A stretch of 64,000 bases of DNA from Sipunculus nudus. Its lineage: Eukaryota; Annelida; Sipuncula; Golfingiida; Sipunculidae. Position 1 is the first letter of the stretch. Each line of letters starts with the position of its first letter. The notes under the pieces are model-generated. The model was not told the DNA's origin and ran no database searches. It saw only the letters and a program-made list of their open reading frames with translations. This document shows, in pieces, positions 3,097-18,209 of this stretch. The DNA lies in NCBI GenBank assembly GCA_026874595.1, contig CM049307.1, forward strand, positions 35,692,862 through 35,756,861, read 5' to 3'. The position numbers were made by a program, and so were the translations under genes.

Positions 3097-3107
3097 CACT
3101 CTAAAAA
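3097..3107. repeat. Left terminal inverted repeat of the CACTA-like element
   Basis: CACTCTAAAAA matches the inverse of 18199-18209 at 10 of 11 positions. It directly follows TCTAAATGTCG, which aligns with the empty site TCTAAATTTCG in copy B. Confidence 0.8.
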
Positions 3108-3560
3108 CTGAGGACATGTTTTATGTTTCAATATGAAACATCATTTTGTCCCGTTTTTTGAAACATGTGTTGGTGTTGTAAGATGTTTCAAGTAAGGGTC
3201 AAGTTTCAAATATTCATGAAACATGTTTCAAACGAAACCATGTCTCAAGAGCTTGATTTCAATTTATGAGACATGTTTTGGATACACATGTTTAGACTTG
3301 AAACATGCTTAAATTAAAACATGTCATAGGATATGTTTCAAATAAGGTGGAACATGTTATGTTATTTAAACATGTTTGAGGCAACATGTTTTGAATGACG
3401 TTTCAACTTGAAATATCAAATTTTTGAAACATCTTCTGAGACATCATTTGTCCCGTTTTTTGAAACACATGTCAACCGCACATGATGTTTCAACGTATGT
3501 ACGTTTTATTAAGCAAAAGACATGTTCTCATATGAAACATGCATCCAGAAGATTTGTAGG
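3108..3560. repeat. Left subterminal repeat region
   Basis: About 450 bp with many copies, in both orientations, of ATGTTTCA and TGAAACAT, often as ACATGTTTCA palindromes. A longer unit starting at ACATCATTTTGTCCCG appears near 3137 and again near 3441. The same words fill the other end at 18020-18198. In CACTA elements such words are binding sites for the accessory transposition protein. Confidence 0.75.
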
Positions 3561-4883
3561 CACCTTTTTTAAAGTAAAAGAACTTAAATTGGGTTCAGTG
3601 ATGGGAATATTCCACATTTCAATCTTACTGAAAATAGGAAAAAAAAAACAATATGCACACTTTTCCCATGAAAAATATACTTTTTAATACATGTATTCAA
3701 AATTAAAGAATGTAATAATTACAAATCATATTCATTTTTATAGTGCACAAACTTGTGCTTAGATTAGATAACGAATGGTTCAATTATATGAATACCAGAA
3801 ATAATTAGAAGGCATCAATCAGATGCCGAGACAGTTATGAACAGTTTGAAATAAGCAAAGAACACTCTGAATGGTCCAAACTGAACATTTACTGGTTCAT
3901 CATATTTAAATGGAACAAACTGTTATGTTTTCTTTTATTTCAGTTTTATTTGGGAATTATTAAGATCCAGTAATTACTAAATTAAGGTTATAATTAAACA
4001 CCTCCTGAAACCTAACACTACTGTTATTTTTGTTTTACTGTAAAAGGGACAAAAATAGGATTAAAATTAAACAATGAATGACATCATACCATTGTCATCT
4101 TAATTTTAAACTTATAATCTTTTCAAAATAAAAGTGTATTTTTTAATGGAAAATCATTCAACTCCTCATCCTGAGAGCTATACAAATGATCAACATGAAA
4201 TACTGGTAATTTAACCTAAACCTGAACCTATGAATTCTAAAAGTCCCTTCTTGTGATAATCTTAAGCTAAATCTTAGGATACGTTTACCCAGTCCTGCTG
4301 AAACACAGACATCTGCATCTAGCTTAAATATGAAAATAACATTAGCCGGTTAACACTCATCTTAAACGAATAGAAGCAAACAAACATTGTAAGTGCCCTG
4401 ATGTAACAACATCACAATGGTCATACCTTAACAATTACTAGTACATCCAATTTAAATGAAACAAACTGTTATGTTTTTTTTATATTTCAGTTTAATTAGG
4501 GAAATATAAGCATCTAGTAATTCCTAAACTAAGGTTATACATAAACACCTCTAGAAATCTAACATGGCTGCTATTTTTGTTTTACTGAAAACAAAGAACT
4601 AAATATGATTCAGCTAGTCCTGCTGAAACAAAGTAAGACATCTGCTTCTATCTTAAATATAAGAATAACATTAGCTGGTTAACAATGATCTCAAATGAAC
4701 AGAAGCAACCAACCAATATAAGTGCCCTGATGTAACAACATCACAACTGTTTCATATACCCCCACTCTGATACAGCAAGTATTCATTGTTACATTAAACT
4801 AGTGGCCAATGGGCCATGATGCTCAGCTTAATTCTAGGAAAATTTAACAATAGGTTACATGACTTCCAAGTGTCAAAGATATA

Positions 4884-4946
<63 letters not shown>

Positions 4947-5355
4947 AAGCCACTAAGCACTCATCAATAAATAACAATAGACAAAATTTAGTATCAGAGA
5001 TACTCACACAGAATGACTGGCAAAAAAACTGACTTGTATTATCAAATTATTCTGTCTTTCTACAAATGAATAAGGCTAAAAGTTACTAGTTTAGTTCTAA
5101 AGAGGTTTGGTTTATGGTAGGGGTGGTGGCTTACTGAATTAACAAACACTTGTTAAGTATTACCAGATTAACTGCCAGCTTGTAGCCAGCATTGAAAGAA
5201 ACAGAGCAAAAGTAAATACCAACGTCTGTAACATTTCAATGTGCCAGCAGGTCTGATCCTGTGAACAAACCCATAAAAATTCAATGTCTGGTGTGAGCAG
5301 CAAAAGTCTTTAACAGCAATAAAGTCTTTCTGAGTAGTTTTCTACAGAATAAACC
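3561..5355. repeat. Element 3' segment with a diverged internal duplication
   Basis: No coding exon is seen. A block starting AACAAACTGTTATGTTTT (near 3912 and 4460) and a second starting CAGTCCTGCTGAAACA (near 4292 and 4615) each occur twice in the same order; the copies are diverged and the spacer between the blocks is shorter in the second. An (AT)n tract occupies about 4884-4947. The stretch also holds the 3' UTR of the SAM gene, but I found no clear poly(A) signal. Confidence 0.6.
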
Positions 5356-8300
5356 TTATTTGTTAAGAGCCCCTATAAACTGCTTGTATGATGTGCTCTT
5401 GTCTTTCTCTGGAACCTTCACCTGCAAACACTTTTCTTGGAACAAGTTTAAAATCTGTGCATAGTCACGAGGATATGCCAAGAACAAGATGTAGTAACAT
5501 GACAACAATAAGTAGCATGTTTTCCAGACGCATCCGTGTTCTAAATGACAGACTGTTTTCCCATCTGCAAGAATCACACTAGATCTTACTTCTTGGCCAT
5601 TCAAAACAAAAACAGCAAATGGTTCAGCCCCCTCTGATGTTTTGAAGGAAGTATCCGTGATATCTTCCTGAAAAGAAGTGATCAGTTATAAATTATGCAT
5701 GAGTCTAAATTATTATAACTCATAAATATATGCAGTATAATCATATATTAAAGACTAGTACACAGAAAATACTGAACAAATCAAAGAGAAACTCGAAAAT
5801 TTGCATTTGCAGGCAAATGCATTAAGCGCCCCGTGAAGCACAAATATAATTTCTGTAAATATGGGTCAAGGTCAACCAAAAGTTACTCAGTTCGGGCGAG
5901 TCATTAGTCAATGGCTTTCACAAAATTAGAATGAACTCTTGGTGCTATTGTGTTGACAAACAAATGATTCCCAAAGTCTACTGTGATTTGATCTTGAGAG
6001 CACAAGTTGCATAATGAGTGAAATGGGTACTGTTAAACAAACTGATGAATAATGCATGGTTTGGTATAATTCTGATGAATAATAAATGATTTCAGAAAAA
6101 TGAGATTAGTATGATGCAAAACTGATATACAAGAATATTTGACAGTATGTCTAAAATCATTTTTCCATGATACTGAGTCATTGGGAGAGTAGTTAGTCCT
6201 TGCCTTCCACTTAGAAATCCAATCAAAACCCTTGGTGCTATCTTGCTAACATCCAACTGATGCCCAAAGTCTACGCTGACTTGACCTTGAGAGCATATGT
6301 CTATGTCAAGGTCACAACACCAGTGTAAATATTTTTGCTTCTACTATACAGAACTATGATATAATATTGATAGATGGCAGCATGTGGGAGCTATGAGCAT
6401 TTTTAAAGTATAGATAGGGACACCCATATGGTAAAACAGTAAGCCCCCCCCCCCCCCCCCCCCGAGGTATTTAATTATAACTCAATATTAGGCAATGTGT
6501 ATAGCGATTTTGAATGAAAAATGTGCAGTATTTCAAAAGTTAGCTCTATCACCAAAAATCACATAAACGAAAATTCCAAATAAAAAAAATCCTTGATCAA
6601 GTTCACCCAAAGGTTGATGCATTTGAGCAAGTCATAAGGCCCAGCTTTTCACAAAGTAATACGCATATTAAATGAAAACCATAGCCAATATCAGGCTAAC
6701 GGGCATGTTAGGGGTGAGATTTCCAGTAAGAGCTGACCTTGAATGTAATCCAAACAACCAAAAAAAAATCTGTTGCCTTTCTAGCGCAGGATTACGAGAA
6801 TATTTTGATAGGTGGCAGCACTTCTGAGGTACAAGCCTCTAGAAATCTGCAGATGACGCGTAGCAGGTAAAACAATAAGCCCCCCTTATGGGGTGCTTAA
6901 TTAAAGATCTTATTATATAAAACAACTAAACTTGACACAAGGACTGCATTTTTATGCATGGGAAAAACAATGGTCTTTTATATCGAATGTTGGAGAAACT
7001 AATATTTTCTGTAAAAAAGATCATTTACTGTGTCAGATGTATCATTAGCTTTTCAAATGACATGACAATAGATTAGTTGAAAATTTCCTTAAAAGCAAAG
7101 ACAGAGCCTTAATCATGGAAAAGAAACAGCCTGAAGCTTATATTCTAAATATTAGAATTGTCTTGTGAAAATCCACAGTTAAAAAAAGTGGTTTGCACAT
7201 TGCAAATCATGCCACGCTGAGCAGTTCTGATGGTTAAGTGTAATGAGTTGGTAGGCAGAAGCAGGACTTGTCACTACAGGGTAGATTTAGGTCTTTTTCT
7301 TCTGTATCAGCATCAGTTAGATATTGGAGTGTAAAGAAATATATGAAACTTACTGAAGAAATAACCTGAACTGCTGATTTCTTCTTCTTTGCTCTACCTC
7401 GGCCACAGGATACACGTGCCTCTGCAACTTTAATCAGATCTAGCATGGTCTCTTCTTTATCTAAGTCAGCATTACTATCATGGAACTGTTCAATCTGCTT
7501 CATTAGATCTTTGAAATTTTTCTCAAACATGTTTGGACAAAAGCCCAACAATTTCATTTCAAGATGTAACATGCTTTCCTCATGGAGCCAAGGATACTGT
7601 CCCCACACAGTACTGAGTTTTAATTCAGTGGAAGGTTTACTGCGTATCCACTTCTGTCTTTCTTCAAATGTTTTACTCTGCCACTTCTCCACTTTTTCCA
7701 TATCTGGCTTATCCTTCACTTTCTCTTCCTTCAATTTTATAACTAAATCTCCTTCATCTTCTGATGAATCTCCTGAACAACTTGGAACTGCTACTGCCGC
7801 AGATGCATTATCCTTTGGTCTTTTCCACTGTGATACATTCAAGTCATTCAGTGATGCAATTCTCTTTTGCCTTCCTTTCTGTCTTGTTCGAATGTTTCTC
7901 AATTTGGCTGAGAGCTTTGTATTGAAGAACTGCCATTCAGTCCGCCCTGGCATAGCAAGTACAGGATATTTCCGGGTAATAGATTTACCTATTAAACAAG
8001 AAGCACAAAATACAAAACTGGTATTTACAGAAAACCACCAGAAAACATTCTAAATATATTTAGTTAATAAGAAAAGCAGAAAAGTAATTACTTATGGATA
8101 AATAACATTCTTTTGTAACCACTTTATAATGGCACTAAATGAAGAACCTTTTATCTAAGTCTTTAAACTTCCTGTAGCTGTTTGATTCACATGCATGGTA
8201 CTAAACCTGATAAATAAAATACTCCACCAAAAGCTATCTGTATGTGCATTCACACAGCTTTTTTTGTAAACAGCCATTTTCAGTTGGACACACATTTTGA

Positions 8301-11300
8301 AAGTTATCTGCAACAGTCAGAACAGATCTTTACATAAACAACTATAACATATCAGTCATAGTAAAACAGCAAGCTACCACCTATAAAGTAACTTTAAAAT
8401 AGGTAAGTATCCATTTTTTTAATTACTGAAGACCATCTTAACACTTCCTGATTACCAATCAAGTCATTACAGATGACAGTTTTAAGAGTTCAATAAAAAT
8501 TTTGTATTAACACTCTCCTTAGATTTCTTGCTTCTTTCAAGGTGACACTAAACACTGCCCGAAATAAACAAAACTCACTCAGGAATAGTTTTTGTATGAC
8601 TAAGAAAACCTGGACCATTAATCATTGATTGGAGTCTCAAAACTTGCAGAGAATTCTTACAGGATATAGGGATTTAAGGCATAATTTCCTGCAATTTTAA
8701 GCAATTCACAAATTTGACATGACTACCATCAGGACAAGAATAGGGGGGGGGGGGAGTAAGAGGGTTGCCACATCGGCTTCAGTACCAAAGTGTCTGAAAG
8801 GCTGATGGATGGCAGGCACATGGAAGGTGATTACTATTGCTCAGCCTGACTGATAGTTAACTTAGCTAATATATTTACAGCAACTGATAAGGTAAAAGTA
8901 GACATTTTCGGGAAATACTTTTTCTCACCTATGTTCTCAAATGAAAGTCTTGCTTCCTCCCTTGTTGTGGGGCAGATTGGCATGTAGAAAGCAGCTGACT
9001 CATCTATAATGTCATTGTATATTGCCAGAGCCTTCCCCTTGTTCTTTTCATCCAGGATACTTAGGATATGTTTGGAAAAATCTGGCAATGGAGCTGGGAA
9101 AGCAACAACAGGAATCTGTGCATCTTGTAAATCCAAACATGATGGTACTATCTGGGGTTGCAAGGTATTAACTGATCCTGCTTTCCCCTTGGCAGCAAGA
9201 TTTTCTGTAACCTGAAATATAATATGGTACTTTTAAACTTGAACAGGTATCTTAGATTTTATTGAAAATATTATTGCTGGCAGCTTGGTTGATATCGAAG
9301 CATTAAACAAGCATGTGCTGTGACAAAACAGTCACATCCATTTACTTAAATATTGGAAAGAACAGACAACATAGGCACATTTCATGAAAAAAATATGCCA
9401 AAATGAGAATTTTTTTCCAAGTGGTTAGTGCATGGGGCAGTCTTGAGAAAATACAATAAGTTTTATTATAAAACTGAAGTACTCCTTTAATTTCCGGAAG
9501 GATAAAGGTCACAGTGACCTGTTACAGGTTGGAAGGTTGTATTGAATTCTGAGCTTATGTCCAAGTTAAAGTATGTAAGCATTAGCTGTTTCAATTTGTG
9601 CTGGTCTAATGGATGCTGGATCGTCACGTTAAGCTATAAATTGAACAAGGGACCCATGGGTCACATCGCTCAGCCGTATTTTGGAAAATATTAGTAACTG
9701 CAAAATATTTTTATTTCTTTTGGTTTTTCATGTATATTATCATTTGAAAAGCTATGAGAAAATGGCCCTGCTAAAATGAAACTCTGTAAATTATAAAATA
9801 ATGGACATGACCAAAACCAGTTTGTGATGCACCAAGGGAAAAAATGGGCTTACGGTAAGTGTTATATAAAAGTAACATTTCATAAACAAATAATGTGTGA
9901 AGGTAATCAAGTTTTCAAAAGTTAAATATATGGCCATATGAATTAAAATTTAATCCCACAAAGTTTGACCAATATTTCTAATTTTAATACTAAGTTAACA
10001 GTGTTATTCACACCTAAGCCATGCCAACTTTAAGAGATATGAATGAAATGCTACAAAGTATTTATATCTTCTTATACCTTGTCAGTTAGCAGTTAGCCCT
10101 TACATTAGATCCTAATATTTTATCACATTTGAATATTAGGATTAAATTCCTGAACATTTTTTCTTTAAAAAAAATCAAAATTGTCTTAAGTCTTAATTTG
10201 TTTATTAGTCCTGTGTATTAAAGGGGTGGGTGGGGGGAGGGGGTCTCTGTTGTCACTGCTCGTTGCTGAAAAAAATGTTAATTATAAGATTCATCTAGTT
10301 CATAGTACAGTACAGGTCTGTCAACAGAATAGGGTGGGGGGGGGGGGGAGGGGAGGAAGAGAAAAAGGCTCCTTGTGGTATTAACTGCAGACAGCCTGAT
10401 CTCTGTGGAGATCAGTGATCCCAGCTCAACTCAGTGGAGAGAGGGCTTGCCTAGTGATGGGATTACATAACAACAGCCTGGGGAGCATAGAGAGCTGCAC
10501 TGAATGACCTACAGTGACCAAAGTGGACTGCTTGACAATGTAAGGGAATACAACAAAAGCCTCCAAAAAAATCAATAACTTGCCTAATTTTGCAGTTTTT
10601 ATTTTCAAAATTAGATATTAACAGATTAAATCCTTATGTGTACATGCTGTGAAAATTAAATCCACAGTACTTACAGGAAAAAAAAGTGCCATGGCAAAAG
10701 TTGTGCAAAATTTAAGGTACCAATTTTTTGTGCTGGTCTAATGGATGCTGGATCGTCACGTTAAGCTATAAATTGAACAAGGGACCCATGGGTCACATCG
10801 CTCAGCCGTATTTTGGAAAATATTAGTAACTGCAAAATATTTTTATTTCTTTTGGTTTTTCATGTATATTATCATTTGAAAAGCTATGAGAAAATGGCCC
10901 TGCTAAAATGAAACTCTGTAAATTATAAAATAATGGACATGACCAAAACCAGTTTGTGATGCACCAAGGGAAAAAATGGGCTTACGGTAAGTGTTATATA
11001 AAAGTAACATTTCATAAACAAATAATGTGTGAAGGTAATCAAGTTTTCAAAAGTTAAATATATGGCAATATGAATTAAAATTTAATCCCACAAAGTTTGA
11101 CCAATATTCCTAATTTTAATACTAAGTTAACAGTGTTATTCACACCTAAGCCATGCCAACTTTAAGAGATATGAATGAAATGCTACAAAGTATTTATATC
11201 TTCTTATACCTTGTCAGTTAGCAGTTAGCCCTTACATTAGATCCTAATATTTTATCACATTTGAATATTAGGATTAAATTCCTGAACATTTTTTCTTTAA

Positions 11301-14300
11301 AAAAAATCAAAATTGTCTTAAGTCTTAACTTGTTTATTAGTCCTGTGTATTAAAGGGGTGGGTGGGGGGAGGGGGTCTCTGTTGTCACTGCTCGTTGCTG
11401 AAGAAAATGTTAATTATAAGATTCATCTAGTTCATAGTACAGTACAGGTCTGTCAACAGAATAGGGTGGGGGGGGGGGGGGGAGGGGAGGAAGAGAAAAA
11501 GGCTCCTTGTGGTATTAACTGCAGACAGCCTGATCTCTGTGGAGATCAGTGATCCCAGCTCAACTCAGTGGAGAGAGGGCTTGCCTAGTGATGGGATTAC
11601 ATAACAACAGCCTGGGGAGCATAGAGAGCTGCACTGAATGACCTACAGTGACCAAAGTGGACTGCTTGACAATGTAAGGGAATACAACAAAAGCCTCCAA
11701 AAAAATCAATAACTTGCCTAATTTTGCAGTTTTTATTTTCAAAATTAGATATTAACAGATTAAATCCTTATGTGTACATGCTGTGAAAATTAAATCCACA
11801 GTACTTACAGGAAAAAAAAGTGCCATGGCAAAAGTTGTGCAAAATTTAAGGTACCAATTTTTTATTTTTGCCAATATTTTTAAAAAATTTAAAAGATTTT
11901 GATCTAATTTTGGGTATATAATTTAATTTTGATTAATTAAAGTTAAATTACTGGAAAAAAGTCCTAAGCTTTAACAAGTTTTGTTTTAAGTGATCAAATA
12001 TCTTTCCTGATTTTTTACAAAATGCATTATGTTTGTGCCCATAACTTTTTTTAATTATATAATACAGACTTCATTTCTGGCAGGTACATAGGAAATATAT
12101 AGAGGAATATTTATGATAAATATGAGGAAAAACAGATGAGTGGTTTTGATATTAGGCGGTCCTGAAGTTTTTCTCCTGAAGTTTGAAAATAGGTTTTTAA
12201 TAAAAAATTGAGGTTTTTCATAATTTCTCAAAGGAACGAAGTCGCAAAGACCCAGGTTTCGGCTTGGTAGAAGATCTTGGGGACATCTAAAATTATGCTG
12301 AATTTTGGATTCCTAGGTCTTATGGTTTCAAAACATGTCATATCTACGGACGGACGGACAACGGACAATGGACCACGACTATAGCTCAGATGACTTATAG
12401 TCAGCTGAGCTAAAAATCTTAACAAAGGTAGTGCCACCATTAAAAGAATGAGGTTGGTAAAATAAATGCATGAGAAATTTTAGGAAAATTAATCCACCAA
12501 AAGAAATAATTGACATGAGAACAAAAAGGGAACAAATCATTTGACTAAATACCTCATTAGACACTGTTAGGATGCTATGTGGTGTTAAATCTGAAAGGAC
12601 ACAAATGATATATTGATAAAAAAATTACTTTTTGTCAATCATGGCTCAACATATGGTGCTGATATGATGACTGCAACCATAGCTGCTCCCCCTGTAGAGA
12701 AGCACAACACTGGCCAGGGCACATCCAACTGTTCTGGATGAATGTTTGTGTTCTCACCACCATCAAAAGTAATTTTGTAGGTGTTAGAGTTTTCAAGGTA
12801 TGAACATGAACTATGCTTTCTTCCATGAAAGATTACTTTTCTGGCCAAGCTTGAAACATATATCTCGGATATTTCAACAAATAAGCACACAGTGTCCTCA
12901 TTCCAATCTGCTACTACACAACCAGTTTTATATGTAACGCCATGCAGACTCACACTATCAGTCCTAAACCAGTTTTCACCTTGAGAAGATGGTACACTTG
13001 TGACATAATTTGGCAATGGAACATACTCGCCCACACCAGTGACTGGACTTAGTTCCAAGAATGCCTGGTTTTCATACTGATGTAAGCACATCCACCTCTG
13101 GTGGTTGAAAGCTAGTGTTTTAGGAATGTTTTTGAAGTTTCTGTATTTCATCCTTTTAAAGAGCTGGTTTTTTGCTTCCATCCGCATACACCAATGAAAT
13201 CTGAGTGGGCCAAATTTCTTCATTTGTTCTGGCAAGTGAACCATATAGTGAATCTTTGGTATCATATCCACATCTGGATATAAAGCAGCAAACTGTGTCA
13301 TAAATGTAGTCACCATCTGCTTTAGCAAATTAACTGTTATTGTATCTGCTACTGGTGAAGTAACTAACACTTGTATTTTTAACAGAGTAATGAAATGCTG
13401 CCATTTTGGGTAGCCCTCTGGTATATATTTTCCAATCAAAAGTGGCAGTATATGGCACAAACACTGCATTTGACTCGCAGTCTGCCTCAGTTTAGCAGAT
13501 TTAAGGGAAGACTTCTCAATGGCATTTGGTATGTTATTCAGTTTCTGGCTTTGCTTAACCCTTTCAAGAGAGCTGTTTAAGTCATCCAATGTGAACAAAT
13601 TTTGACCAATACAGCTGTTCAGCAGTTCCTTGACAATATACATAGATATCCCCTCAAAAAAGATGTGCATAGGGTCGTGCAGCAAGCATTTGGTCACATC
13701 AAATTCTGGAATACCTGCAAGGACAGATTTGATATTGATGCCAAATTCTTTGGACCAATATGTCCGAGCTGCTGGTGATAAAGCTCCAGACAAAATTTCA
13801 CATTCTCTGTTGTACTTATGTATGGTGCGCAAAGTGCAGTCCTCATGTATCAACAAACTGGGGATGTCATTTTTCACTGCATAGCATGTCATACATATCC
13901 TATGACTAAACCCTACTCCTACCTTGAATCCCCCCATGGTGTGGAGTGCCAAATTGTCACCTGTAAATACAAGTAACCTGCCAAAAACAGTTCCCAGACC
14001 TTCTACTTCAACTCCCTTTTCAAAGAGCTCTTGGAGGCCTCCAATGAAATCACTTAACAGTTCACTCATCCCAAAGAGTTTGAGATCTTTTGACTTGGCT
14101 ACACCAATGAGTTGGATACATTGTAGTTTTGACCTGCTCTGTCTGGGGATATTAAGCAGCTGCCAGTAAAACAGTGCTACTTTGTGTTTTCTAGTATTGA
14201 CACCTACTGGGTTGGCAATTTCTAGATCATCATAATATGCCCCTAACCAGAGTTTGCACCTGTTTTCTTGATTCCCTTCAAAGATATGCCCATCATAAAA

Positions 14301-17103
14301 GTCCCTCATTTTTCCATCATTACTCCTGCAGTTCTGTACTGACTGAATGTATTTTTTTACATCAGGGATTTTCAGCAAAGCTTTTAAATTGTCCATAAAT
14401 GGTACAACATAACCAAATGACTTTACCTCTACCAGTCTTTTTCTCTTTTGGCTCCATTTAATTCTGCCTCCTAGTGTCACAGCCACTGGCTCCAATAAAT
14501 TTAAATGATCCCTAAAAAATTGTTGCTGCTTATATTCACTATGTAGTGGACCAACTATTTCTGCTGGCATCTGAATACAAACATCCCTACACAGTTCTGC
14601 ACTTGCATCAAAAGCACTTTCAATGTGGTCACATACTGCATTTGCTGTTTGTTGAATTAATTGTGTCTGAGACACCAAAATTTCATTAATTCCAGCCTGA
14701 CTGAGGTTATAATGAGATTTGAGTTTTAATAATAAAAGTGCAAGTGATTTTGTGATGCAAGATGAGTCTTTATCATTAGAATCTGGACCTTCTTGCACAG
14801 TTTCTACCCTTTCAGGCTCTCCTTCATCATATGCATCATCATTCCATTCCTGGAACTTGTGCTTCCTGAAGATATGTTTCCTAAATGTCTCATAGTTCTT
14901 GTACAGAGCTCCACACTGGATACACGACACTTTAAAGTATGGGTGGGACTTATGTTTATTTATTATATGTTTTGACAGTGTCTGGTCTGATATAAACTTG
15001 TGTGGGCATAATGGACATGTAAACAGGGGCTCCATCTTAAAGCTTGCTGAATACCTGCCATCCTTCTTCCTGGAGAACTCTTGTTACCAATTTCTGAAGC
15101 CCAATCTCTGGAAATATCTTGTGAACTTCCTCCGCAGTCAAACTTGTAAGGGCTTCTCCATCAATGTAGTTTTCTGAAATGCAGGGCACACATTCACATA
15201 TGTATCAATGTCTAACACTGTCCGAATTGTTGTTTATACACAGGTGTGGGGGGAATCGAGACCCCCTGCTCTTAACCACCAAACTTGTTTAGACAAATTT
15301 TATGCATGACAGGTAAATAAGCACCCAATGACACCCCCTGACTACCCCCCCCCCCTCCAAAAAAAAAATCCTGAATCTGTGCCTGTTACATGTCCTTGGA
15401 CCATAAAACTCAAGCTGGAATGAACTAGAAGAGTAACTGTGGATTTAAATAAGCTTGCCTTTACTAACTTGAAACCAATTCCTTAAAACTTTTTCAGTAA
15501 TTGTTAAAGCTTACAGGAATTCCTTGTAAATATATAAATTTTAATATAAAATTCAATAAATGATTATTTGTTTGCTTCCATCGTGATAAGGGTTTGCAGA
15601 TTTTAGCCATCATCTGGGTAAAACTGGGGATTAACCCAGTTTTAACCCGGGTTGGGTAAAATAGGTTTTACCCAGGTTTTATCCGGGTTTTACACAGGCT
15701 TTCTTTTCAGTCCCACATTTTCTCTAGTTTTAAACATAAAGTTTATGTAAAAATTGCATAATTTTAAACATTTTTATTCTATACAATTGAATATAGTAAT
15801 AATTCAGTGCATCATGCTTGCAGTACCTTAAGAGTGATCAGATATCAGCTGTCCCTGTTAAAGAGTCATACAAACCATATGAAGGCAAAATGACCTGTTT
15901 ATATATTAGTGCTGTGCCCTGCATTGCCCAACATAAGATCAAGTGTGAGTAGATCCTAATATGAGTTCAATTCTGAGAGGTACATGACTCTGAGCGAGCC
16001 TGTTGATTAGCTAGGTGCTCTGTATAGCCAAAACATGAATTCCAGTGTGACTGGAAAAAGGCTGCTTCTTGACTGGGGTGATGTTTCTATGGATCATGAC
16101 TGCTAACCAATCAGGAAGTAACTAAGGTGTGATGCTCATGTATGATTAACCCTTTACTGTTTACATTTATTTTAGTTTTCCGACAATTTCTGTCGGATTT
16201 AAATTTACATTAACAGCAATATCTTTTCAAGCTTTTAATGTATCTTTATCAAATTTTCAACAGTTTCAACAAAGAGGGTTTGCTGAAGATTATTGAAAAT
16301 CATTGAAACTTAAAAATAATATGCAATATTTTTGTCCTGAAAGAATCTATACATATCATGGCATCCTAGTTGCCCATTTTGAGTGCTCTTTAGTGGCTTG
16401 TAAACAGTGAAGGGTTAAAGCAAATAAATGTGAAAAACCTGGATAATTCACTGGGTAAAAACTGGATAAAATACCTTTTACTTGGGGTTTACCTGCTGGG
16501 TTGGTTAAAATAGGTTCAAACCCTGATGGTGATGCTAACCTGGTAAAGATCCTGGGCTTACATTGTCATTTGTAATATTTGCAAAGCTCTGGTTTATTGG
16601 ACTTGCTGTCATAAGCCCATGTTGAATTTGTTTTATTTTTGCATGCCCCAACATGTTATAAACACGTTAATATAAACAAAACAAGCAGCCTGTGTGTGGT
16701 GATATCCACGTCTTCTGGCATTTTCTTATATAAGCTCCATGGGATGACCTTTAGCTTATACAGGACAGATAGGTGACTGGGCCCCTTTAAGACCCCACTG
16801 AGACTGAGCAAGCTGTAAAGGGGTTTCCAAACCACAAAGTGATACAAATGGGAATACAGTTAGGGGGAGGGCGCTCATTGATAATCATGCAGACTTCTCA
16901 AAGCATTAAGACTTTTAGTATTCATTTTTTGGTTAGTAAGTCACACAGATCTCTTTATACAAAGTTTCAAACTTAAAATAAGTAAGATCATTTCATAACC
17001 TTCAATAATGGTTTATGATTATGAATGTTTTTATAACAACTTTCACCTGAGGATCAGGTCTCATCCCGTCTGTAGTGAATGTAATGTTATTTTTCTTCAT
17101 TGT

Positions 17104-17135
<32 letters not shown>

Positions 17136-17227
17136 AATAAAACAATGAAGAAAAACAACACCTTAAATTCACTACAGACTGTTTCATGGGATGAGACCTG
17201 ATCCTCAGGTGAATTGAGAAAGACTCA

Positions 17228-17275
<48 letters not shown>

Positions 17276-17854
17276 ATATATATGTATATACTGTTAACTA
17301 GATACAATCAATTTCTTGTACTTTAGATTTTAATATTGGAAAGCTAAATTTATTATTTATTAAAATTTCTACATCATAGACGGTACATGACCAAACTTCG
17401 GATAAAACAGGATTAAAGTTAAAATCTGTTTTATCCAATCTGGATTAAATCTCTGGATTAAACTGGCTGCGGATTAAACTACCAACTCTGAACATAACTT
17501 TAGCTCAGATGACTTATAGTCAGCTGAGCTAAAAGGCGAAGGGGGGGGGGGGGGGGGGTTCACATTTAAATTTTAAATTAAAAAATATAAATTATATTTA
17601 ATTTATATGAAAACTATTTTATTTAATAGGACAATGAAGCCAAATAAATCTAAATTAAATTGTTTATTGAGGTTGAGCACTTTAATTATGCTGAAATCTA
17701 GTCAGCTCGTTTAACAATTTAATTGAAACTTACCAGCAAAGCGCTTGGCCACAACTTCATGAGGAAATTTCTCTCTTGCATATGCCTGAACATCTTCCAG
17801 GGAGGAGTGTTTGTTTACTGCCCGAGGATGTCCTGTTTCTGGTGGCTCGGACAT
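5356..17854 (-). CDS. SAM-domain protein (SAMD3-like), candidate accessory transposition protein
   Basis: Five exons read on the minus strand: 17854-17734, 15173-15055, 9211-8929, 7988-7354 and 5667-5356. They give 489 aa with every GT-AG join in frame. Residues about 15-80, across exons 1 and 2, form a sterile alpha motif ([15 protein letters not shown], then [15 protein letters not shown], then the final helix). Exon 3 has a Pro-rich linker. Exon 4 has a basic segment, an acidic patch (SSEDEGD), a [16 protein letters not shown] helix region and a KKKK tail. Exon 5 has an [10 protein letters not shown] beta region and a YYILFLAYP segment. The order resembles proteins annotated 'sterile alpha motif domain-containing protein 3-like', known to me as multicopy genes in fish and invertebrates. 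SAM domains usually self-associate. The gene spans most of the transposon, and its intron 2 contains the transposase exon. A DNA-binding or assembly role is inferred from this arrangement. Confidence 0.85.
5860..6900. repeat. Three diverged repeat units in SAM-gene intron 4
   Basis: Units near 5870-6060, 6170-6460 and 6600-6890 share CTTGGTGCTAT-like words, a CCCAAAGTCTAC-type block and GATAGNTGGCAGCA followed by GTAAAACARTAAGCCCCCC. A pure poly-C tract lies at about 6443-6462. No exon is seen in 5668-7353. Confidence 0.55.
9594..11863. repeat. Recent 1.13-kb tandem duplication inside SAM-gene intron 2
   Basis: The block from about 9594 to 10725 is repeated almost perfectly at about 10726-11863, offset 1132-1134 bp. 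Differences are a few substitutions and the length of the GGGTGGGGGG tracts. Each unit holds a poly-G-rich stretch and a 60-codon minus-strand open frame that is identical in both but looks fortuitous. It could be a recent duplication or an assembly artefact. Confidence 0.9.
12240..12415. repeat. Dispersed repeat with GGACGGACGGACAACGGACA and a terminal palindrome
   Basis: The segment begins at GTCGCAAAGACCCAGG and ends at an imperfect palindrome, AGCTCAGATGACT-TAT-AGTCAGCTGAGCT, at 12383-12411. The same 29 bases recur at 17502-17530. This looks like the end of a non-autonomous mobile repeat; the family is not recognised. Confidence 0.5.
12639..15035 (-). CDS. Zinc-finger DDE-type transposase of the CACTA-like element
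   Basis: This is one uninterrupted frame of 798 codons. ATG at 15035 is the first after an in-frame TAA. Two C2H2 fingers sit at the N-terminus (C7, C10, H23, H28; C38, C41, H54, H59), followed by an acidic stretch (about 65-90). The core holds motifs shared with EnSpm/CACTA-like transposases: [10 protein letters not shown] (D269/D270), FTGDNLA (D360), [12 protein letters not shown] (D454), [26 protein letters not shown] (E620) and [10 protein letters not shown]. The acidic residues are candidate RNase-H-fold catalytic residues; which Asp are used is inferred. The frame is intact, so the copy may be young. It starts 19 bp after the donor of SAM exon 2 and lies wholly inside that intron, so it must be made by alternative splicing, intron retention or a separate promoter. 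Confidence 0.88.
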   Translation of the reverse strand: MEPLFTCPLCPHKFISDQTLSKHIINKHKSHPYFKVSCIQCGALYKNYETFRKHIFRKHKFQEWNDDAYDEGEPERVETVQEGPDSNDKDSSCITKSLALLLLKLKSHYNLSQAGINEILVSQTQLIQQTANAVCDHIESAFDASAELCRDVCIQMPAEIVGPLHSEYKQQQFFRDHLNLLEPVAVTLGGRIKWSQKRKRLVEVKSFGYVVPFMDNLKALLKIPDVKKYIQSVQNCRSNDGKMRDFYDGHIFEGNQENRCKLWLGAYYDDLEIANPVGVNTRKHKVALFYWQLLNIPRQSRSKLQCIQLIGVAKSKDLKLFGMSELLSDFIGGLQELFEKGVEVEGLGTVFGRLLVFTGDNLALHTMGGFKVGVGFSHRICMTCYAVKNDIPSLLIHEDCTLRTIHKYNRECEILSGALSPAARTYWSKEFGINIKSVLAGIPEFDVTKCLLHDPMHIFFEGISMYIVKELLNSCIGQNLFTLDDLNSSLERVKQSQKLNNIPNAIEKSSLKSAKLRQTASQMQCLCHILPLLIGKYIPEGYPKWQHFITLLKIQVLVTSPVADTITVNLLKQMVTTFMTQFAALYPDVDMIPKIHYMVHLPEQMKKFGPLRFHWCMRMEAKNQLFKRMKYRNFKNIPKTLAFNHQRWMCLHQYENQAFLELSPVTGVGEYVPLPNYVTSVPSSQGENWFRTDSVSLHGVTYKTGCVVADWNEDTVCLFVEISEIYVSSLARKVIFHGRKHSSCSYLENSNTYKITFDGGENTNIHPEQLDVPWPVLCFSTGGAAMVAVIISAPYVEP
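15589..16524. mobile_element. Possible non-autonomous element with AGGGTTTG ends
   Basis: The left end AGGGTTTGCAGATTTTAGCC and the inverse of the right end, AGGGTTTGAACCTATTTTAACC in shortened alignment, are similar. Both ends are followed by GGGTAAAA/ACCCGGGTT-type words. No clear target duplication was found. It contains the TTAA-flanked insertion at 16150-16414. It lies in SAM-gene intron 1. Confidence 0.4.
16146..16418. mobile_element. piggyBac-like MITE with TTAA target duplications
   Basis: TTAA followed by CCCTTTACTGTTTAC at the left mirrors GTAAACAGTGAAGGG followed by TTAA at the right, with one mismatch in 15. TTAA duplication and CCY ends are the hallmark of piggyBac-type transposition. 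It is about 265 bp and non-coding. Confidence 0.7.
17040..17284. repeat. Imperfect inverted repeat around (AT)n loops
   Basis: TTCACCTGAGGATCAGG (about 17042) and its inverse ending CCTGATCCTCAGGTGAA (about 17197-17213) flank an (AT)n tract. The arms extend outward-in to AAGAAAAACAAC-type words for about 70 bp, and a second (AT)n tract follows. It is probably a small foldback element. Confidence 0.6.
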
Positions 17855-18019
17855 ACTTGTACCGTCGTACGTCTTCTTTAATTTCACGTTTTCAGGTCCC
17901 TAAACTTACTGACCTGGGACGCTCCCGCGCGTTCCATTAGCTACTTCCGGCGTATTAAACAACGGAATATTTCGCCTGCTTTATCATAATTGTTTACCAG
18001 TTATTCCATACCAGCAGCT

Positions 18020-18198
18020 TCGTGAAACATGAGATATGACTCAAACATGCATATGAAACATGTATCGAAAAGAAGGATGTTTCAAACTAGAAAGTCTGTC
18101 AGATATTTAATATTACATGTTTCAAAACATGTTTAATTTGAATACATGTTTTCTAATGAAACATGTACCATCATTTTGAAACATCATGTGAAACGTCA
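18020..18198. repeat. Right subterminal repeat region
   Basis: At least ten ATGTTTC/GAAACAT words, in both orientations, lie within about 180 bp. It is the counterpart of 3108-3560 and lies upstream of the SAM-gene start, where promoter and transposition sites would overlap. Confidence 0.75.
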
Positions 18199-18209
18199 TT
18201 TTTACAGTG
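18199..18209. repeat. Right terminal inverted repeat of the CACTA-like element
   Basis: TTTTTACAGTG; its inverse CACTGTAAAAA pairs with 3097-3107. Sequence homologous to copy B resumes immediately afterwards (GTGACAAACTGCATGCGCAA). Confidence 0.8.

Follow-up and report, generated by a model that had tools for sequence, protein, structure and literature searches.

The stretch analysed here (64,000 nucleotides of the Sipunculus nudus genome, assembly GCA_026874595.1, contig CM049307.1, positions 35,692,862 to 35,756,861; hereafter, the window) contains a DNA transposon with two genes on one strand, a transposase and, built around it, a five-exon gene for a protein with a SAM domain (Table 1). 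The ends, the repeats, and the gene models bear out what the sequence-only reading had claimed for this locus, that is, a transposon with repeat-rich ends whose transposase is nested within a second, multi-exon gene. Across the 64-kb window, CACTCTAAAAA at 3097 and TTTTTACAGTG running to 18209 are the sole inverted pair of this kind, and all SAM-gene exons lie inside these terminal inverted repeats (TIRs). The motif AAACATG, counted on either strand, is found 20 times in the 750 terminal bases and 18 times in the remaining 63 kb (binomial P ~7e-29), the terminal stretches of 500 and 250 bp having been picked after the repeats were noticed.

Table 1. Features of the transposon in the window (positions counted from the first base of the window)
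Feature	Position	Strand	Remarks
Whole transposon	3097..18209	minus	15,113 bp; both genes are read from the 18209 end to the 3097 end; inverted CACT(C/G)TAAAAA ends
Distal TIR	3097..3107	+	CACTCTAAAAA
Promoter-proximal TIR	18199..18209	-	CACTGTAAAAA, the complement of TTTTTACAGTG, which ends at 18209
Subterminal repeats, distal end, AAACATG(TTT)-rich	3108..3597	no strand	12 AAACATG (both strands) in 3098-3597
Subterminal repeats, promoter-proximal end	17960..18198	no strand	8 AAACATG (both strands) in 17960-18209
SAM gene exon 1 (ATG; first half of SAM domain)	17734-17854	-	
SAM gene exon 2 (second half of SAM domain), 119 nt	15055-15173	-	equal length in the modelled sister copy
SAM gene intron 2	9212-15054	-	holds the transposase open reading frame
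Transposase open reading frame, 798 aa, intact	12639-15035	-	wholly within SAM gene intron 2
SAM gene exon 3, 283 nt	8929-9211	-	equal length in the modelled sister copy
SAM gene exon 4	7354-7988	-	donor 7354 favoured by the gene of the sister copy; 7366 possible
SAM gene exon 5, with stop	5356-5667	-	

By these gene models, the transposase frame is situated within an intron of the second gene and on the same strand, as in the En/Spm architecture. Both frames are intact, as first read: the transposase open reading frame (ORF) is unbroken, and the five exons of the SAM gene, all with GT-AG introns, encode 489 amino acids (aa), or 485 aa with the 7366 donor. The transposase ATG lies 19 intron bases beyond the exon 2 donor and, if intron 2 is retained, the SAM frame stops one base ahead of that ATG (TAAGATG).

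Intron 2 also holds a tandem duplication of ~1.13 kb (9595-11769) adjoining the transposase, which is probably recent because 300-nt blocks are 100% identical between its copies. A 45-nt stretch with a GCTCAGATGACTTATAGTCAGCTGAGCTAAAA core is present twice within the element, at 12371-12415 and 17490-17534 (91% alike), and may be a small unrelated repeat.

The transposase possesses two C2H2 fingers at its N-terminus and, by structure prediction, a RAG1-like DDE core and a BAH-like C-terminus. Residues D269, D360, C381xxC384, H596xxxH600, and E620 are invariant across seven transposase sequences, and the acidic ones are the putative catalytic residues, as judged by position. Membership was assessed by the C(2)C and H(3-4)H signature, which excerpts of PMC12730594 describe for the CMCT clade. 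Pfam Transposase_21 was not among the matches at E<=1 for the window transposase and six relatives, so that the comparison with DDE families proposed in the sequence-only reading yielded only weak matches to DUF4218 and Plavaka (the latter in two relatives, below cutoff). The viral and prokaryote contigs searched with the transposase contained no relatives. Because the ends are CACTC and CACTG rather than CACTA, the target site duplications (TSDs) of the relatives are 2 bp rather than 3 bp, and Transposase_21 is unmatched, we reject membership in CACTA/EnSpm in the strict sense; the earlier label "CACTA-like" is to be kept for the wider CMC/Transib/RAG clade. Elsewhere in the genome, one transposase-like match (C16:45625855-45627501) lies within a reading frame that stays open for 2,249 aa, against the usual 800, which is possibly a fusion or a host gene.

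When the 1.43-Gb Sipunculus nudus genome was searched with the transposase, 56 of 205 candidates were scored. One was identical (the window copy itself) and a sister family stood at 57-63%, the remainder being more distant matches of 26-42% apart from a few short pieces of 44-57%; 20 kb were then taken around ten of the best matches. Seven near-complete sister copies are located on five contigs (C11, C1, C12, C8, and three on C17, designated C17a, C17b, and C17c). In tblastn comparisons, all seven have SAM exon 2 directly 5', and exons 3, 4, and 5 3', of the transposase, in the same strand and order. They are 96-99% identical to each other, are bounded by CACTCTAAAAAGTGC and GCTTTTACAGTG, and measure ~16.5 kb in C17b, C12, C8, and C17c; the last 75 bp at the distal end of the window element have 81% identity to their distal end. 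Both ends were read in five copies, whose flanks differ (C1 and C17a each lack one end), and four of these five, in which both flanks are readable, possess a 2-bp TSD (TA in C12, C17b, and C8; TG in C17c), none being found in C11. Three of the seven (C11, C17b, and C1) retain an unbroken transposase frame. The same two-gene layout recurs, therefore, in related transposons on other chromosomes and is a real, conserved design: a variant of CMC-clade transposon with a SAMD3-like partner, which is new, and whose mobility is seen in relatives. It had been proposed to look for the SAM gene apart from the element, and the related full copies hold SAM gene and transposase together. The suggestion of recent activity is well supported for the sister family, and only indirectly so for the window copy.

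Selection has preserved both genes. The SAM gene was fully modelled in C17b, the one sister copy in which exon 1 was modelled, and has five exons encoding 481 aa, exon 2 (119 nt) and exon 3 (283 nt) being of exactly the same length as in the window. Amino acid identity between the window and C17b is 48% for the SAM protein and 58% for the transposase, and divergence at codon positions 1+2 versus position 3 is 0.352 versus 0.614 for the SAM gene and 0.266 versus 0.552 for the transposase; these position-wise values replace a codon-based dN/dS, for which no dS was obtained (saturated). Positions 1+2 are much less changed than position 3, and purifying selection has therefore maintained both genes.

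More distant families show how far the arrangement extends. In C2, three copies are >99% identical over the 2 kb ahead of the transposase. The SAM domain is encoded there in two halves, the first by an exon immediately upstream of the transposase and the second on its downstream side, and the joined halves match SAM_1 at E 1.5e-8, which passes the Pfam cutoff. As read internally, short of the element ends, the reading frames place the C2 transposase in the intron between the two SAM halves. Both in the window and in C2, this SAM-splitting intron follows a FAG/FQG motif. The C15 transposase is 32% identical, and its element (13.3 kb, TSD TA) carries CACTGTAAAAA at both ends. In C15 and C7, tblastn gave just weak matches to the SAM exons, and a CIDE-N-like half domain is found 3' of the transposase (E 0.0023 and 0.0058, below cutoff); one pattern was tried for the first half of CIDE-N upstream of these transposases, and none was found. 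The N-terminal part of the C3 protein has a weak match to DUF5537, below cutoff. A profile of the window and C17b SAM proteins finds frames in C15, C3, and C7, at E 8e-10 to 0.009 and on the transposase strand. The C15, C7, and C3 elements keep a SAMD3-like core, with SAM replaced by a CIDE-N-like half or another N-terminus, suggesting N-terminal domain swapping among element families.

The SAM assignment is weak in the window protein itself (SAM_3 E 0.012 and SAM_1 E 0.015, under the cutoffs), and the cutoff is reached in the sister family (SAM_Ste50p, 21.3 versus 21 bits). Compared with 5.8 billion proteins, the SAM protein had no match at E<=0.001, and its kinship to SAMD3 is thus visible in profile comparisons only. 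A resemblance of the second protein to SAMD3 prompted the profile comparison. Vertebrate SAMD3 gave 247 matches, of which 120 were listed and ten aligned for a profile. Against it, the window and sister proteins scored P 8e-6 in hhalign (probability 83.5%), the best of 60 column shuffles reaching 0.011. The SAM part alone gave 1.5e-5, residues 86-489 gave 0.003 (best shuffle 0.045), and residues 260-345 alone gave 9.5e-4; residues 110-215 and 380-475 were not significant in hhalign.

The SAMD3 profile was also run on 3,888 six-frame ORFs from six element regions. It returned 16 rows (15 ORFs) at E<=5, every one on the transposase strand; rows above E 1 are probably noise, and two are outliers (C17b 20895, past the element end, and C3 16795, out of order, E 4). 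In C2 five rows are collinear, from model positions 2-26 (E 0.14), through the transposase, to 25-89 (E 0.003), 219-273 (E 0.0025), 274-337 (E 4e-7), and 400-429 (E 0.54), the first and last being weak, and three rows are collinear in C3 (189-213, E 0.009; 282-335, E 1e-5; 440-502, E 6e-8). The window exon 4 row is weak (E 0.059). Collinear similarity to SAMD3 is thus found over the SAM, middle, and C-terminal parts, and these profiles point to a remote relative of SAMD3, solidly for the clade and more thinly for the window protein alone. The second protein is a SAM protein, as first described, but is not an orphan. Among the papers listed in a literature search, with Repbase outside its scope, none was seen to report a transposon of this type with a SAM or SAMD3 protein; the excerpt of PMC5405107 (abalone) is irrelevant here, as SAMD9 and transposable elements come up in it unconnected.

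The window's own family also has members with no transposase match nearby. A search for other copies with the same termini had been advised, and the left end is indeed present at other loci. The genome search with bases 3098-3600 listed 43 rows, and the counts are accordingly lower bounds: at least 10 other loci match at 90-97%, nine of them along the full query and one along 404 bp, and each match starts at query base 1, that is, window position 3098, one base within the edge. At least 29 further places match just the first 71-74 bp at 88-90% and are perhaps another non-autonomous family having this end in common; one more region matches at 71%. When the tables were compared by eye, no transposase match among the 56 scored was found near the ten loci, the nearest being ~250 kb away, and the window therefore holds the only full copy found, among transposase-less relatives, a pattern like that of Spm and dSpm. 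At C3:38126003-38162079 the 71-bp element end is present four times on one strand at a near-regular spacing of ~12 kb, as if a 12-kb end-carrying unit stood in tandem.

We consider it highly probable that the element belongs to the CMC/Transib/RAG clade and is a cut-and-paste DNA transposon, autonomous now or until recently, with two genes on one strand. Transcription would begin at a putative promoter just within the 18209 end; splicing out intron 2 would give the SAM protein, and keeping it, or using an acceptor just ahead of the transposase start, would give the transposase. The zinc fingers and RAG1-like core of the transposase would recognise and cut the ends, and the SAM protein, through SAM-SAM contacts, may help assemble or regulate a complex on the repeat-rich ends, possibly acting in trans on copies without the genes. 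The element may be active today. Several observations weigh against this interpretation. No TSD was found at the window copy (3 bp, TCG/ACG; 2 bp, CG/AC), which may have lost it or had an end rearranged, the two being indistinguishable. Only one full copy of the exact window family was found among the candidates scored, one or more stops or frame breaks interrupt the transposase in four of the seven sister copies, and an eighth copy at ~57% (C10) holds SAM exon 2 only. In C3 the second gene seems to begin 3' of the transposase, from an ATG of its own and with another N-terminus, and nesting is not supported there. The transposase structure model is of low confidence (mean pLDDT [predicted local distance difference test] 58.6), and domain searches recognised no DNA-binding domain in the SAM protein.

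Taken alone and without a TSD, the window would be compatible with a host SAM gene into whose intron an unrelated transposon had inserted, but all SAM exons lie within the TIRs, the same gene pair is present in 7/7 sister copies, and C2 shows the pair in a third family. Segmental duplication of such a host gene is disfavoured by the different flanks and 2-bp TSDs, and the sister copies lead us to reject this explanation as extremely improbable. The kinship to SAMD3 would also suit an origin by capture, with a host SAMD3 gene carried along as a passenger that is useless in transposition. This is unlikely, since a gene present across families (window and sister, with weaker profile matches in C2, C3, C15, and C7, whose transposases are 26-34% identical) and under purifying selection between the first two is too old and conserved for a passenger.

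A narrower form of the transposon interpretation deserves more weight, and we put it only a little short of an even chance. Here, the zinc-finger transposase alone would bind and cut, and the SAM/SAMD3-like protein would be a regulator (by promoter repression and de-repression, or by countering host silencing) rather than a synapsis partner. Polymerisation is common among SAM domains, the transposase has two C2H2 fingers and a predicted BAH-like C-terminus of its own, and the SAM protein has no recognised DNA-binding domain; regulatory roles are also known for TNPA of Spm, according to excerpts of PMC1636069. The strict co-conservation of the gene with the transposase fits an essential partner equally well.

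The closest parallel to the two-gene transposon is maize En/Spm. Excerpts of PMC2613891 and PMC1636069 describe a tnpD transcript with a large ORF from tnpA intron 1, and a TNPA that binds subterminal repeats, both products being required. Like this system and other plant CACTA elements (Tam1, Tgmt*), the animal element has its transposase frame in an intron of a multi-exon second gene on one strand, repeat-rich ends, and deleted copies (PMC2613891, in excerpt), and belongs to the same wider DDE clade; in layout, it resembles En/Spm. It differs in that the second protein is SAM/SAMD3-like and not TNPA or TNP1 (a distinction made without sequence comparison to those), the ends are CACTS rather than CACTA, the TSDs of its relatives are 2 bp and not 3 bp, the transposase has zinc fingers and a predicted BAH-like tail, and nesting is in intron 2, or in the SAM-splitting intron in C2, rather than intron 1. 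ESTA and Plavaka, fungal members of the CMCT clade, share the C(2)C and H(3-4)H signature and, with TSDs of TA in ESTA and 2 bp in PlavakaA, resemble the relatives described here; most of that clade has CA..TG ends, here CACT..AGTG, whereas Plavaka ends in TGT or CATCA, and some of the fungal elements carry TET/JBP genes, a SAM gene being unmentioned in the excerpts of PMC12730594. SmTRC1 and other animal TRC elements, which are related to CACTA, also have 2-bp direct repeats and show alternative splicing, but SmTRC1 is 4.5 kb long with CCC ends and a recognisable Transposase_21, and the excerpts of PMC1636069 mention no SAM partner. Sequence identity to ProtoRAG, Transib, and RAG1 is ~10%, and the partner is SAMD3-like, not RAG2-like. 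Vertebrate SAMD3, the collinear remote relative of the second protein, has ~520 aa and, among the records listed, no transposase attached.

The En/Spm plan, with a transposase in an intron of its partner gene, is therefore found in an animal too, where the partner is of SAM type and gains an identity, as SAMD3-like. We tentatively entertain, without favouring it, the proposal that vertebrate (human) SAMD3 is a domesticated second protein of this clade, and that a nested RAG1-like transposase with a SAMD3-like partner is an old two-component machine, parallel to or co-derived with plant tnpA/tnpD; it would give the conserved vertebrate gene a concrete, testable origin. Splicing, and whether the partner is needed, can be tested in the sister family, whose copies are nearly identical and in three cases out of seven retain an unbroken transposase frame. 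For the origin of V(D)J recombination, the element supplies a point of comparison: a transposase predicted to fold like RAG1 whose partner is not RAG2.

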